This document shows, one piece after another, positions 5,129-17,356 of a stretch of DNA of 29,800 nt. A program made the translations under genes and the position numbers. Within the stretch, counting starts at the first letter, position 1, and each line of letters begins with the position of its first letter. The notes under the pieces were generated by a model. It was not told the DNA's origin. It did no database searches and was given only the letters and a program-made list of their open reading frames with translations. Source of the DNA: a virus; IMG/VR virus record IMGVR_UViG_3300044730_001496, positions 1 to 29,800 of that record. One strand, 5' to 3'.

Positions 5129-5848
5129 ATGCCATTACCTAAAATATCTACACCAACATATGAGTTGGAAATTCCTTCATTAGAAAAACAAATTAAGTAT
5201 CGCCCCTTTCTAGTTAAAGAAGAAAAGATTCTCATTATTGCAATGGAAAGTGAGGATCCAAAGCAAATTGCAGAAGCAGTTAAAACAGTAATTGGAAACT
5301 GTATTTTAACTAGAGGAATTAAAATCGAACAATTATCTACATTTGATATTGAATATCTTTTTCTAAACATTCGTGGAAAGTCTGTTGGAGAAGAAGTAGA
5401 AGTTCTGATTACTTGCCCCGATGATGGTGTGACGCAAGTTCCAATATCAATTAGTTTGGATGAAATTAAAGTTCAGGTAAAACCAGAACATACAAAAGAT
5501 ATTAAACTTGATGATAATCTGACATTAAGAATGAAGTATCCTTCAATGCAAGAATTTGTTAAAAATAATTTTTCAAGTGATGGGGATATGTCAGTTGATG
5601 ATACTTTTAGTATGATTTCTTCTTGCGTAGAGCAAATTTATAGTGAAGAAGAATCCTGGTCTGCTTCTGATGTAACCAAAAAAGAAATGAATGAGTTTCT
5701 AGAACAGTTAAGTTCAAAGCAGTTTAAGCAGATTGAAAAATTCTTTGAAACAATGCCCAAACTTTCTCATACTGTATTTGTAACAAATCCGAATACTGGT
5801 GTGGAAAATGAAATTCTCCTGGAGGGACTAACATCTTTTTTCGGTTAG
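5129..5848 (+). CDS. 26: baseplate hub protein gp26 (tail-assembly-chaperone-like)
   Basis: 239 aa (T4 gp26 is 208 aa). The opening PLPKISTPTYELEIPSLEKQIKYRPFLVKEEKILI, then TVIGNCI, IEQLSTFDIEYLFLNIRGKSVGEEVEV, and YPSMQEF are the hallmarks of the T4 gp26 family. gp26 is needed for hub assembly. The protein ends with an acidic helical region. The last codons (TCT TTT TTC GGT TAG) contain a canonical slippery heptamer in the correct phase, so a fraction of ribosomes may shift -1 and continue into the next ORF. The following genes look like tape-measure proteins, the usual place of the G/GT chaperone pair in other tailed phages. Driven by a late promoter at 5101. Confidence 0.78.
   Translation: MPLPKISTPTYELEIPSLEKQIKYRPFLVKEEKILIIAMESEDPKQIAEAVKTVIGNCILTRGIKIEQLSTFDIEYLFLNIRGKSVGEEVEVLITCPDDGVTQVPISISLDEIKVQVKPEHTKDIKLDDNLTLRMKYPSMQEFVKNNFSSDGDMSVDDTFSMISSCVEQIYSEEESWSASDVTKKEMNEFLEQLSSKQFKQIEKFFETMPKLSHTVFVTNPNTGVENEILLEGLTSFFG
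5836..5842 (+). other. predicted programmed -1 ribosomal frameshift site
   Basis: T TTT TTC, with gp26 read as TCT TTT TTC GGT TAG. Slipping back one base gives TTT TTT CGG TTA GGT ATG and enters the 57-aa ORF without a stop. The heptamer fits X XXY YYZ and lies three bases before the gp26 stop. I did not identify a firm downstream stimulatory hairpin. Confidence 0.6.
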
Positions 5849-5850
5849 GT

Positions 5851-6024
5851 ATGGCGCACGTTGATCTTGCGTCATATTATAAAACTAATTTTGCCTTGAT
5901 TCAGCATCATCATTGGTCTTTAACTGAAATTGAAGAAATGTTACCTTGGGAGCGTGAAATTTATATAAGTCTACTTCATCAATACATTGAAGAAGAAAAT
6001 TTAAAAAATCAACAACATTCTTAA
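5851..6024 (+). CDS. 57-aa C-terminal extension ORF of gp26 (GT-like chaperone / gp51 position)
   Basis: 57 aa from ATG 5851, two bases after the gp26 stop; the -1 frame is open through CGG TTA GGT into this ATG, so it may be made mainly as a gp26 fusion of about 298 aa. The sequence (ASYYKTNFALIQHHHWSLTEIEEM, PWEREIYISLLHQYIEEEN) is helical and resembles second-frame extensions of tail-assembly chaperones: aromatic/His helix, S-L-x-E-I-E-x-M, W-E-R-E, and an acidic end. In T4 gene 51 follows 26, but T4 gp51 is far longer, so homology is not claimed. The last residues (KNQQHS) follow a point where a second copy of the gene's 3' end is found 0.8 kb downstream, beyond an inserted endonuclease. 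Confidence 0.7.
   Translation: MAHVDLASYYKTNFALIQHHHWSLTEIEEMLPWEREIYISLLHQYIEEENLKNQQHS
5978..6009 (+). repeat. upstream copy of duplicated 3' gene end
   Basis: 32 nt matching 6766-6797 at 28 positions. In frame both copies encode QYIEEENLKN, and all four differences are synonymous third-position changes (TAC/TAT, TTA/TTG, AAA/AAG, AAT/AAC). The two copies flank the GIY-YIG gene. Confidence 0.8.
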
Positions 6025-6042
6025 ATTATTTCTGATTGAAGT

Positions 6043-6657
6043 CTATTTTATTTTTTCAACCTTCATAATGTCTTTATGTCTTTTTCGTTTTCCTTTATAT
6101 ACATTATGAATATTACCATTACTATAACCACTATTTTTGCACCAAGTAGATAATCCACATATTATAGTTACATCTCCATTTGAATGTGTAATTTTCCACC
6201 AATTAGATCTTAAATGTTTCTCTCCTAATTGCGCCATTTTCATTTTTTCTCTAGTTTCTGGTGAAGGGGATTTTCCATATCTTGGATTATTTTTTCCAAT
6301 GTTAGCTTTTCTTAATTTTTCTTTATGTTCTTTCAAAAGAATTTTATTTTTATTTGCTCTACTTAATTTTTCTTTAAACTCTAAAGAACGAACTGCTCCA
6401 CTTGCACCATCTCCACCATCAGTTCTATTATGTAAAATACCAGTACCTAAATCTTTTCTACCAAAAATAGAAATCATATATATTTCGTGTTTGAATGCTT
6501 CTTCTTCAGTTAAATTTTGTTTAAGAAATATAATTCTTGATCTATCTTTTGGTAGTTTTGCCCCTTGATATCTTTTATTAAATGCTCTCCTATCCTTACC
6601 CTTTCCAATATAGTAAGGTGTGCCGTCTTCACGCAAGTAAGCGTAAGTATAATACAT
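6043..6657 (-). CDS. GIY-YIG homing endonuclease (copy 1)
   Basis: 204 aa from ATG 6657 on the minus strand. An in-frame ATG at 6678 is rejected because it lies inside the inverted-repeat arm and upstream of the predicted late transcript start (~6676). N-terminal GIY-YIG nuclease: YYTYAYLRE, YYIGKGKDRRA, IIFLKQNLTEEEA, catalytic Glu in KHEIYMI, and HNRTDGGDG. The middle holds NUMOD3-type DNA-binding repeats (FKEKLSRANKNK, EHKEKLRKANIGKNNPRYGK, ETREKMKMAQLG). The C-terminal part (TIICGLSTWCKNSGYSNGNIHNVYKG) looks like a helix-turn-helix. It is free-standing, antisense to the tail operon, and closely similar in its nuclease domain to the copy at 16808. Confidence 0.9.
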   Translation of the reverse strand: MYYTYAYLREDGTPYYIGKGKDRRAFNKRYQGAKLPKDRSRIIFLKQNLTEEEAFKHEIYMISIFGRKDLGTGILHNRTDGGDGASGAVRSLEFKEKLSRANKNKILLKEHKEKLRKANIGKNNPRYGKSPSPETREKMKMAQLGEKHLRSNWWKITHSNGDVTIICGLSTWCKNSGYSNGNIHNVYKGKRKRHKDIMKVEKIK

Positions 6658-6681
6658 TTCTACTCTATTGAACCGCAATAA

Positions 6682-6689
6682 TATTTATA
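6682..6689 (-). promoter_or_regulatory. T4-type late promoter P2 of endonuclease 1
   Basis: The minus strand reads TATAAATA. Predicted start is near 6676, inside the proximal arm, so the late transcript lacks the distal arm and cannot form the hairpin. Confidence 0.65.
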
Positions 6690-6696
6690 ATAATAA

Positions 6697-6717
6697 AGGA
6701 GGGAATTTCACCCTCCT
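6697..6717 (-). terminator. terminator-like hairpin in cassette 1
   Basis: On the minus strand: AGGAGGG, 7-nt loop, CCCTCCT, followed by TTATTATTA. A 7-bp GC-rich stem with a T-rich tail lies just upstream of the endonuclease late promoter. Confidence 0.55.
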
Positions 6718-6746
6718 CCTGCGAATTGCGGTTCAACAGGTACCAT

Positions 6747-6753
6747 TATTTAT
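6747..6753 (-). promoter_or_regulatory. possible late promoter P1 of cassette 1
   Basis: The minus strand reads ATAAATA; predicted start ~6741 is at the beginning of the distal arm. RNA from here would begin with the distal arm and meet the hairpin terminator after about 25 nt. The same arrangement recurs at 16715. Confidence 0.35.
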
Positions 6754-6759
6754 GGGATA

Positions 6760-6766
6760 CTAAATA
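6760..6766 (+). promoter_or_regulatory. T4-type late promoter for the tape-measure-like genes
   Basis: CTAAATA, about 39 bases before ATG 6805, located between the endonuclease cassette and the recoded gene end. It would keep downstream tail genes expressed despite the antisense insertion. Confidence 0.5.
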
Positions 6767-6812
6767 TCAATATATTGAAGAAGAAAATTTGAAGAACTCA
6801 TCTAATGGCTAA
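6766..6812 (+). pseudogene. recoded, detached 3' end of the 57-aa ORF
   Basis: In frame from 6768 this encodes QYIEEENLKNSSNG and a TAA at 6810-6812, overlapping the ATG of the next gene by 8 bases, the coupling style used elsewhere in the operon. It is most likely the original end of the 57-aa ORF, cut off by the endonuclease insertion. No start codon or initiation site is apparent for it alone. Confidence 0.6.
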
Positions 6813-8055
6813 CGGAAACACCGCATCACTTGTAGGTCTCCAAGATCAATTAAATACTGTACGTTCAGAAGTTTTCACGATTAATTCTGGACTGCAAAAT
6901 ATTGCGGGTTTAATTCAGACTGATAGTTTTCTTGATCAACAAAAACTTCGTGATGAAAGGGAGCAGCAAAGACTATTAAACGAAAGAGAAATAAGACTTG
7001 GGCAGGAAGAACAACTCCAACAAAGAGTTTCTGCATCTTTGGTTCAACCTGTAGTTAAACTTGAAAATAAGATTACACCAATATTTGAAAGAATTACAAG
7101 TGTTCTTAAGTATTTGTTCGTTGGATTTTTGGGGAAAAATATATTAGGTATTTTAAACGCAGGTGCTACTAAAAGTGTTCAAGCAATAACTTCAATTGGA
7201 AGTGTTGTTAGAAATGCTTTTGGATTTATTGGATCTGGATTCGCATTATTGAAAAGCGGATTTTCTTCAATAATTAATGGGGTCCAATCAATTACATCAA
7301 AAATTGGAAACACCGCAATTAAACTTGTTTCATCACCTTTTAAAGCAATTTCTGATATTTTTAAAAATTTATTTAAAGTAGGTGGGACAGGTGGAGGTGC
7401 TGCTGCTGGGGCTGCTGCAACTACTGCTGAATCTGGATTATTAAAAATTCTTCAAACGGTTGGTAAAGTTGGTGGAACTGCCTTGGGTGCAGTTGCTACA
7501 GCACAGAACATCAAAGAAGGTGATGTTGCTGGTGCGGCGTTAAGTGGTGCTGCAACAATTCCAAATCCTTTTCAAATGCCTGCGATAATTGGAAGTGTTG
7601 CGTATGAATTATCTACTGGTGGTGGAATTGATTTTGGAAAAATGTTATCAAGTGGAAAAGAAGCAACGCAAAAATTTAATTTCAATATTAATCAATTTAA
7701 TCCAATGAATATTGATTTTTCCCAAATGGGTAAAAATCTTTTTGGAACAGAAACAACAAATCTTGATGCTCCAGCTAAAGAAGTTAAAGGTAAGGTAGAA
7801 ACTCCAAAAACCACATCTACAAAACCAGTTAAATTAGAATCAATACCACAGCAATCAATTAAGCAACAACCAAACATTGGCGCACTGCCAGAACCAGCTC
7901 CAGATATTGTTTATTTGCAAAATAGTCAGAAAAATAATACCTCAGTTGCATCTGGTGGAACACAGACACTCACAGATGTACCTTTGATTCCATCTTCTAA
8001 TCCTGATAATTTTTATGCATTGTATGCTCAGGTTAGTTACAACGTGGTGATGTAA
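6805..8055 (+). CDS. tape-measure-like tail protein 1
   Basis: 416 aa. Residues ~5-95 are helical and probably coiled coil (DQLNTVRSEVFTINSG, then a run of E, R, Q: DEREQQRLLNEREIRLGQ). A hydrophobic segment follows (VLKYLFVGFLGKNILGILNAG, ~102-122), then Gly/Ala-rich amphipathic stretches (TGGGAAAGAAATTAESG; VGGTALGAVATAQNIKEGDVAGAALSG), and a low-complexity Pro/Gln/Thr tail. This composition and its place directly after the gp26 chaperone pair suggest a tape-measure or hub-internal role, like T4 gp29 (590 aa), but no sequence match to gp29 is claimed. The ATG overlaps the original end of the preceding ORF. One base separates it from the next gene. Confidence 0.6.
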   Translation: MANGNTASLVGLQDQLNTVRSEVFTINSGLQNIAGLIQTDSFLDQQKLRDEREQQRLLNEREIRLGQEEQLQQRVSASLVQPVVKLENKITPIFERITSVLKYLFVGFLGKNILGILNAGATKSVQAITSIGSVVRNAFGFIGSGFALLKSGFSSIINGVQSITSKIGNTAIKLVSSPFKAISDIFKNLFKVGGTGGGAAAGAAATTAESGLLKILQTVGKVGGTALGAVATAQNIKEGDVAGAALSGAATIPNPFQMPAIIGSVAYELSTGGGIDFGKMLSSGKEATQKFNFNINQFNPMNIDFSQMGKNLFGTETTNLDAPAKEVKGKVETPKTTSTKPVKLESIPQQSIKQQPNIGALPEPAPDIVYLQNSQKNNTSVASGGTQTLTDVPLIPSSNPDNFYALYAQVSYNVVM

Positions 8056-16807: not shown

Positions 16808-17356
16808 ATGGAATACTACACTTACGCTTATTTGCGTGAAGATGGCACACCTTATTATATTGGTAAGGGAAAGGCAGGAAGGATCAATAATAAACTCCAC
16901 GCAATTCACCTACCTCCAGAAGAAGGAAGAAGAATATTCTTAAAGCAAAACCTTACAGATGAAGAAGCACGTAAGCACGAGGTTTATATGATTGCTGTGC
17001 TTGGTAGAAAAGATTTAGGTACTGGCATTTTAAGAAATGTGACCAATGGTGGAGAAGGATGTTCTGGACGCCGTTTAAGTGATGAAACTAAAAAGAAGTT
17101 AAGTGATAGGCATAAGGGAAGAGAATTCACGAAAGAACATAGAAGAAAATTAAGTGAATCTGCGAAGAAAAGAAAGGCAAGTAATGAAACAAAAGAAAAA
17201 ATTAGGAAGTCTTCAATGGGGAAAAATAATCCCTCCTATGGAAAAAAATGGTGGAATAATGGTGTAGAAAATAAACTCTGTAAAGAGTGTCCTGGTGAAA
17301 ATTATGTCTTGGGATTTTTGAATAAGCACTGGATAAAAAACATAAATAAAGAATAA
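16808..17356 (+). CDS. GIY-YIG homing endonuclease (copy 2)
   Basis: 182 aa. GIY-YIG nuclease domain residues ~1-85: MEYYTYAYLREDG, YYIGKGKAGRI, RRIFLKQNLTDEEA, Glu in KHEVYMIAVLG, and RNVTNGGEG. Then NUMOD3-like repeats (DETKKKLSDRHKG, EHRRKLSESAKKR, ETKEKIRKSSMGKNNPSYGK) and a C-terminal Trp-rich end (KWWNNGVENKLC, LNKHWIKN). The nuclease domain is very close to copy 1 at 6043-6657, but the DNA-binding ends differ, as expected for different targets. It is free-standing between the 100-aa gene and the 2278-aa structural gene and co-oriented with both. Its last codons contain the late promoter for the next gene. Confidence 0.92.
   Translation: MEYYTYAYLREDGTPYYIGKGKAGRINNKLHAIHLPPEEGRRIFLKQNLTDEEARKHEVYMIAVLGRKDLGTGILRNVTNGGEGCSGRRLSDETKKKLSDRHKGREFTKEHRRKLSESAKKRKASNETKEKIRKSSMGKNNPSYGKKWWNNGVENKLCKECPGENYVLGFLNKHWIKNINKE
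17342..17348 (+). promoter_or_regulatory. T4-type late promoter for the 2278-aa structural gene
   Basis: ATAAATA within the last codons of endonuclease copy 2; predicted start ~17354, then AGGAG and AGGA purine runs before GTG 17385. Confidence 0.55.

Follow-up and report, generated by a model that had tools for sequence, protein, structure and literature searches.

Organization of the gp51 locus

The stretch of DNA analysed here, called the window throughout, is a 29.8-kb IMG/VR virus record with a tail gene order as in T4-like cyanophages. Alleles of gp51 with a homing endonuclease gene (HEG) behind them are termed occupied, those without it empty or uninterrupted. The upstream copy of the gp51 3' end is called the tail, the downstream copy the remnant. 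The following features were assigned.

5129..5848, plus strand: gp26 baseplate hub gene, short form of the gp26/gp51 pair (PF12322, E=3e-74; phrog_150, E=6e-81)
5836..5842, plus strand: slippery heptamer T TTT TTC ahead of the gp26 stop, with gp51 in the -1 frame
5851..6024, plus strand: gp51, baseplate hub assembly catalyst, a hybrid (phrog_634, E=1e-25)
5905..5916, plus strand: site with CATCATCATTGG (HHHW) in the window gp51; empty alleles have CATCATAAATAY (HHKY) with the late-promoter motif CATAAATA
5980..6009, plus strand: upstream copy of the gp51 3' end, QYIEEENLKN, the imported tail
6010..6024, plus strand: element-specific last codons QQHS and stop TAA, not present in the empty relatives L009 and L018
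6043..6657, minus strand: GIY-YIG/NUMOD3 HEG of 204 amino acids, antisense to gp51, assigned by profile matches
6668..6736, minus strand: HEG leader hairpin, outer stem 6668-6679 with 6725-6736, inner GC hairpin at about 6698-6718
6682..6689, minus strand: TATAAATA, putative late promoter within the hairpin, pointing to the HEG
6747..6754, minus strand: second late-promoter-like motif (CATAAATA) pointing to the HEG, outside the hairpin
6759..6766, plus strand: ACTAAATA, late-promoter-like motif carried in by the element and directed at the downstream gene
6768..6812, plus strand: native gp51 3' end (remnant), now leader and ribosome-binding-site region of the next gene, ending in SSNG and a stop over the next ATG
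6805..8055, plus strand: tape-measure-like downstream gene (phrog_305, E=2e-5)

The window gp51 is still intact with 57 amino acids (phrog_634), its reading frame being restored by the inserted end. It is made up of about 20 native first codons, the imported part and the element-borne stop.

Of 68 distinct cyanophage loci, 67 have the heptamer T TTT TTC. Its distance to the gp51 start position is 26 nt in one of these 67, S-SCSM1 (L172), and 15 nt in all the others. The codon ahead of it varies (TCT, AGT, GCT, GAT) with a constant final T, and the gp51 frame is open from the heptamer onward. CTC, CTT or CTG replaces the usual gp51 start in L206, L063, L117, L095, S-T4, Bellamy and DSL-LC03. 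Probably, gp51 is a -1 frameshift extension of gp26, of the tail-chaperone G/GT type.

The endonuclease and the occupied loci

Profile searches with the HEG product yielded matches to NUMOD3 (E=2e-10), the homing endonuclease family phrog_314 (E=3e-13) and phrog_15526 (E=2e-27), while among the GIY-YIG profiles LEM-3_GIY-YIG stayed below the cut-off (E=0.24). The protein carries the motif YTYAY...YYIGKG, and R24, E58 and N77, invariant in 15 homologues, correspond to the conserved catalytic Arg, Glu and Asn. A structure model reached a pLDDT of 68 with I-HmuI and the I-TevI DNA-binding domain as best, weak fold matches; it was considered too weak for a fold assignment, which was dropped. A group I intron or intein around the HEG was rejected: no Rfam intron family was found at E up to 1, and gp51 is closed by its own stop ahead of the HEG.

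Besides the window and near-identical copies of it, scans located a related HEG behind gp51 at 18 further distinct loci (L087-L095, L097-L102, L117, L182, L206). All relatives of full length with more than 62% identity sit behind gp51. The occupied loci are all metagenomic contigs, with the same architecture recurring in independent assemblies; none was found among cultured phages, which we counted against the explanation preferred below. At L182 (1895-2850) the HEG lies behind gp51 in sense orientation, opposite to the window type. Here, its frame is fused in phase through the displaced native gp51 end and its stop overlaps the next start, so that the coupling to the next gene is kept. A scar of HEG loss is seen in L072, where tail, promoter motif and remnant are kept without the HEG, and probably L080 retains the three in the same way. 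Pattern scans for such scars matched only L258, which is the same contig as L072.

Two copies of the gp51 end

Two 32-nt copies at 5978-6009 and 6766-6797 (coding parts 5980-6009 and 6768-6797) flank the antisense HEG. They differ at four positions, all of them synonymous (TAC/TAT, TTA/TTG, AAA/AAG, AAT/AAC), and both encode QYIEEENLKN. In these respects the original prediction was exact. The synonymous match stops at LKN; beyond it the upstream copy reads QQHS and a stop, the downstream copy SSNG and a stop, running on as TCA TCT AAT GGC TAA to 6812 across the ATG of the next gene at 6805. When gp51 was aligned locally to the sequence behind the HEG, the score was 47. As this exceeds the maximum of 2,000 shuffles (29), the similarity is not due to chance. 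Flanking copies were alignable at 16 of the 19 distinct loci with a HEG beside gp51 (the window and 15 others).

The empty relatives closest to the window, L009 and L018, end in LKNSSNG and a stop over ATGGCTAACGG, as the downstream copy does, and the same gp51 end was found in uninterrupted S-SRM01 and P-SSM2. Cultured cyanophages have a 4-14 nt overlap between gp51 and the gene that follows, an arrangement detected in S-SRM01, P-SSM2, S-SKS1, SynMITS9220M01, S-SCSM1, Bellamy, ACG-2014f and S-SCSM2R. Since uninterrupted relatives end as the downstream copy does, this copy is evidently the native gp51 end, and the upstream tail ending in LKNQQHS is foreign to the lineage of the window. The original prediction had placed the insertion near the 3' end of the gene, with the downstream copy as the original one, and had proposed a comparison with cyanophages lacking the insertion. 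In that comparison the empty alleles of L009, L018 and S-SRM01 agreed with it, their gp51 ends matching the downstream copy.

The imported tail and the upstream patch

The near-isogenic pair L206 (occupied) and L061 (empty) is about 99% identical in gp26 and 99.2% identical over 600 nt right of the junction, while gp51 is diverged over its full length, the first codons included. The L206 tail GAAGAAGAAAATCTTAAAAATCAACAATCCTAAT is identical in its last 34 nt to the native ends of L008, L017, L019 and L020 and unlike the native QANG end of its own lineage. In NG-type native ends the lysine of LKN is encoded by AAG in 49 of 50 empty alleles; the tails of the window, L102, L117 and L206 have AAA-AAT at LKN instead.

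A trough of divergence was observed further upstream. Compared to L009, the window gp51 showed 93-97% identity in the first 60 nt and 67-73% in nt 60-120, with 87-91% in the flanks. Codons 20-40 of gp51 (22 codons from HH) were 71-76% identical to the nearest empty allele in the window, L087, L100, L102 and L117, against 84-95% in gp26. For the same stretch, pairs of empty alleles never fell below 74% when gp26 was at least 80% identical, and never below 77% when it was at least 85% identical. The loci L100, L102 and L117 have common gp51 patches (92-97% identical) at 83-88% identity in gp26. HEG and gp26 identities were uncorrelated (Spearman 0.05, 17 loci), with for example 82% in the HEG at 60% in gp26, which indicates that the cassette moves horizontally. 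No divergence trough was seen right of the native copy. The patch drop was not seen in L089 versus L001, nor co-conversion at either flank in L097/L019; both results were counted against our explanation.

We consider both the tail and the upstream patch as imported, in a stretch of about 100-175 nt. Import of the 32 nt only was ruled out by the trough and by L206/L061. Thus, the original prediction of one imported copy holds for the upstream one, gp51 being replaced between neighbours of about 99% identity in L206/L061, but the size of the import had been set too small: the stretch is larger and includes a Y-to-W change. This change removes the late-promoter motif within the gene.

Hairpin and promoter motifs

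The cyanophage late promoter is NATAAATA (PMC2984593). In an alignment of 17 sequences of the HEG leader hairpin 96.7% of cells were paired, with compensatory changes in 6 of 9 pairs, and none of 500 shuffles scored as high. The ATAAATA inside the hairpin was invariant in all 17 aligned leaders, and the predicted stem ends a few nt upstream of a weak ribosome-binding site of the HEG. From this analysis, expression of the HEG seems to be confined to the late phase by a hairpin with a predicted late promoter inside it. The inner hairpin with its T-rich tail is also terminator-like.

A second set of motifs concerns the next gene. Every antisense locus with a long enough contig has [ACT]TAAATA at a distance of 97-126 nt behind the start of the HEG, and L206 has it as well; the motif stands just ahead of the remnant and is directed at the next gene. 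Within gp51, CATAAATA occurs at the codons H-K-Y in 44 of 45 distinct KY-type empty alleles. AAA was used at this site in 44 of 45 cases versus 68% elsewhere, a difference whose significance is only indicative as the sequences are related. At 17 of 19 occupied loci the site has a tryptophan codon and no motif. In the simplest reading, the insertion parts the next gene from the promoter within gp51 and the cassette supplies a new one. The remnants of L087 and L100 are eroded as coding sequence, which fits the role of the remnant as a leader.

A probable homing cassette that replaces the gene end

We consider it likely that the element is a free-standing homing endonuclease cassette whose movement entails replacement of the 3' part of the target gene. 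Its enzyme would cut an empty gp51 allele, and repair of the break would copy in a donor module made up of most of gp51 (starting at codon 20 or so, or before it, and including the donor stop), the antisense HEG and the promoter region. On the right, copying would stop at the conserved GAAGAAGAAAA block. The product is a gp51 that is hybrid yet complete. The native overlap of gp51 with the next gene means that the original 3' end has to be kept in front of the latter; there it would no longer be translated as gp51 and would act as a leader, transcribed from the late promoter brought by the cassette, whose activity we infer. The evidence for the insertion, the native end, the import of tail and patch, the horizontal movement and the covariation of the hairpin comes from sequence comparison.

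The silent differences between the copies had been explained in the original prediction as recoding that may shield the site. In this reading the silent changes of the upstream copy destroy the recognition sequence and spare the occupied allele from cutting. The differences between tail and remnant are indeed mostly silent (53 synonymous versus 8 non-synonymous in 159 codons, 16 loci). However, in a core of seven codons the mean number of differing codons is 2.43 for tail versus remnant and 2.47 for distinct empty alleles compared with one another, so that there is no excess to be explained. Moreover, the two copies are identical over 24-27 nt in occupied L088, L094 and L097, and the insertion alone splits any site longer than the shared block, the upstream copy being without the native right flank and the downstream copy without the native left flank. 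Protective recoding is therefore improbable; the silent differences are ordinary divergence of functional orthologues under purifying selection. It is likewise improbable that copy divergence mainly serves to stabilise the element, with identical direct repeats permitting its loss by recombination. L097 with identical 26-nt copies and 99%-identical L019, the exact product of loss between the repeats, would fit such a role, but this single pair is equally readable as gain, and the divergence of the copies is again not above that between empty alleles.

In intronless homing the HEG cuts a neighbouring gene. Similarly, the protected target may lie upstream at gp51 codons 20-26 or so (HHKYS in empty, HHxWS in occupied alleles), resistance being carried by the co-converted patch. 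The divergence trough is centred on these codons, with KY in 45 of 48 distinct empty alleles and W in 17 of 19 occupied ones. On the other hand, L091 and L206 are occupied and retain the KY/CATAAATA allele, so loss of the site is not required, and W-type alleles are also present among empty ones (L008, L019, L022). As the same change deletes the late-promoter motif, an equally good reason for the association exists, and we regard the upstream target as possible but rather unlikely. A simple tandem duplication or an assembly artefact around an unrelated gene insertion is extremely unlikely. The repeat is short and the contigs are metagenomic; nevertheless, 19 distinct loci from independent assemblies share the architecture, the tail resembles other lineages instead of the own end of the phage, and HEG, hairpin and promoters travel with the tail.

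Similar elements at other genes

The same plan was found at L255:2219-3700 for a phrog_512 gene, annotated in relatives as tail tip lysozyme or virion protein. The HEG lies behind a hairpin with TATAAATA; the gene tail ends in GHHGARTQYAHDYAKRLVLADV and a stop, and the displaced end GHHGARTSYAHEYASKLITVEV, also with its stop, matches uninterrupted DSL-LC02. Over the 23 codons of the duplicated end, 9 differences are synonymous and 8 non-synonymous. A related GIY-YIG HEG, gp035 (L001:5601-6300), lies behind gp4 in S-SRM01, a cultured phage. It ends in GGTATCAAGTAATGG, where the uninterrupted window has GGTATTAAATAATGC, while gp4 of S-SRM01 ends in FGSK and a stop. The last codons of gp035 are GIK and a stop placed across the following ATG; they resemble the native end of gp4, a suggestive if short match. 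S-SRM01 gp279 was also suspected to be a HEG and found not to be one.

In a flank-duplication scan over other HEG loci, L255 was a real case, L116, L223 and L224 were ambiguous, and most loci showed no such duplication. L156 and L195 were rejected as gene-end replacements, having a dispersed repeat and a duplicated terminator-like block, respectively. At L104:3743-5181, 77 nt from the 5' part of the gene downstream (phrog_32546) are duplicated on the flanks of a GIY-YIG gene, possibly a mirror image at a gene start. The window itself harbours a second GIY-YIG/NUMOD3 gene at 16808-17356, about 57% identical to the first over the N-terminal part, which has its own hairpin leader with TATAAATA and precedes a large tail-fibre-like gene; no duplicated gene end was apparent on its flanks.

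The chances are about even that homing cassettes rewriting the 3' ends of structural genes form a general class in cyanophages. Such a class would comprise gp51 in both HEG orientations (window type and L182), the phrog_512 virion gene (L255) and perhaps gp4 of S-SRM01. Each member would carry a stand-in for the gene end, its own late-gated HEG and a new promoter for the gene that follows, and would in this way drive mosaicism within essential tail genes.

Significance and comparison with known systems

A selfish gene that makes good the missing end, and apparently the missing promoter too, can invade a tightly overlapping pair of essential phage genes free of cost. The virus is left with a functional gene, and the parasite is able to pass from one virus to another, distant one. 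This accounts for mosaic gp51 sequences, and phage ancestry cannot be read from the 3' part of such genes. The many natural replicates and the near-isogenic empty and occupied alleles make questions of homing site and co-conversion testable. No report of replaced gene ends in phages was found in the literature searched, with most subscription journals outside its scope.

Mobile ORFs of fungal mitochondria are known to replace C-termini, as in atp6 of Allomyces and in atp6, atp9, cox2 and nad3 of Glomus sp. (PMC3630166). There as here, an endonuclease ORF is bracketed by two versions of a gene 3' end: a foreign one, inserted and joined in frame, and the native one, which has been pushed downstream and matches relatives. 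Most of the differences between them are silent (PMC3630166). The gp51 element would extend this mechanism to phages. In contrast to the fungal cases, it resides in a phage instead of a mitochondrion and its HEG is antisense; gp51 overlaps the next gene, the displaced end serving as the leader of that gene with a promoter supplied by the cassette; and the imported patch spans most of a small gene.

The free-standing HEGs of T4 (Seg/Mob) likewise combine a GIY-YIG nuclease beside an essential phage gene with co-conversion; the inserted DNA can contain promoters of downstream genes (segG), and segD is an antisense example (PMC2988022). A duplicated or replaced gene end, unlike at gp51, is not described in that review (PMC2988022). 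F-CphI of cyanophage S-PM2 is also a free-standing HEG adjoining its target in a T4-like cyanophage, but it belongs to another nuclease family and targets the psbA intron insertion site (PMC6083498). For I-TevI, SegB and Aeh1 MobE, a hairpin before the HEG encloses a late promoter, as predicted here, and only late transcripts escape the structure (PMC2988022); compared to these, the stem of the gp51 HEG ends just upstream of a weak ribosome-binding site.
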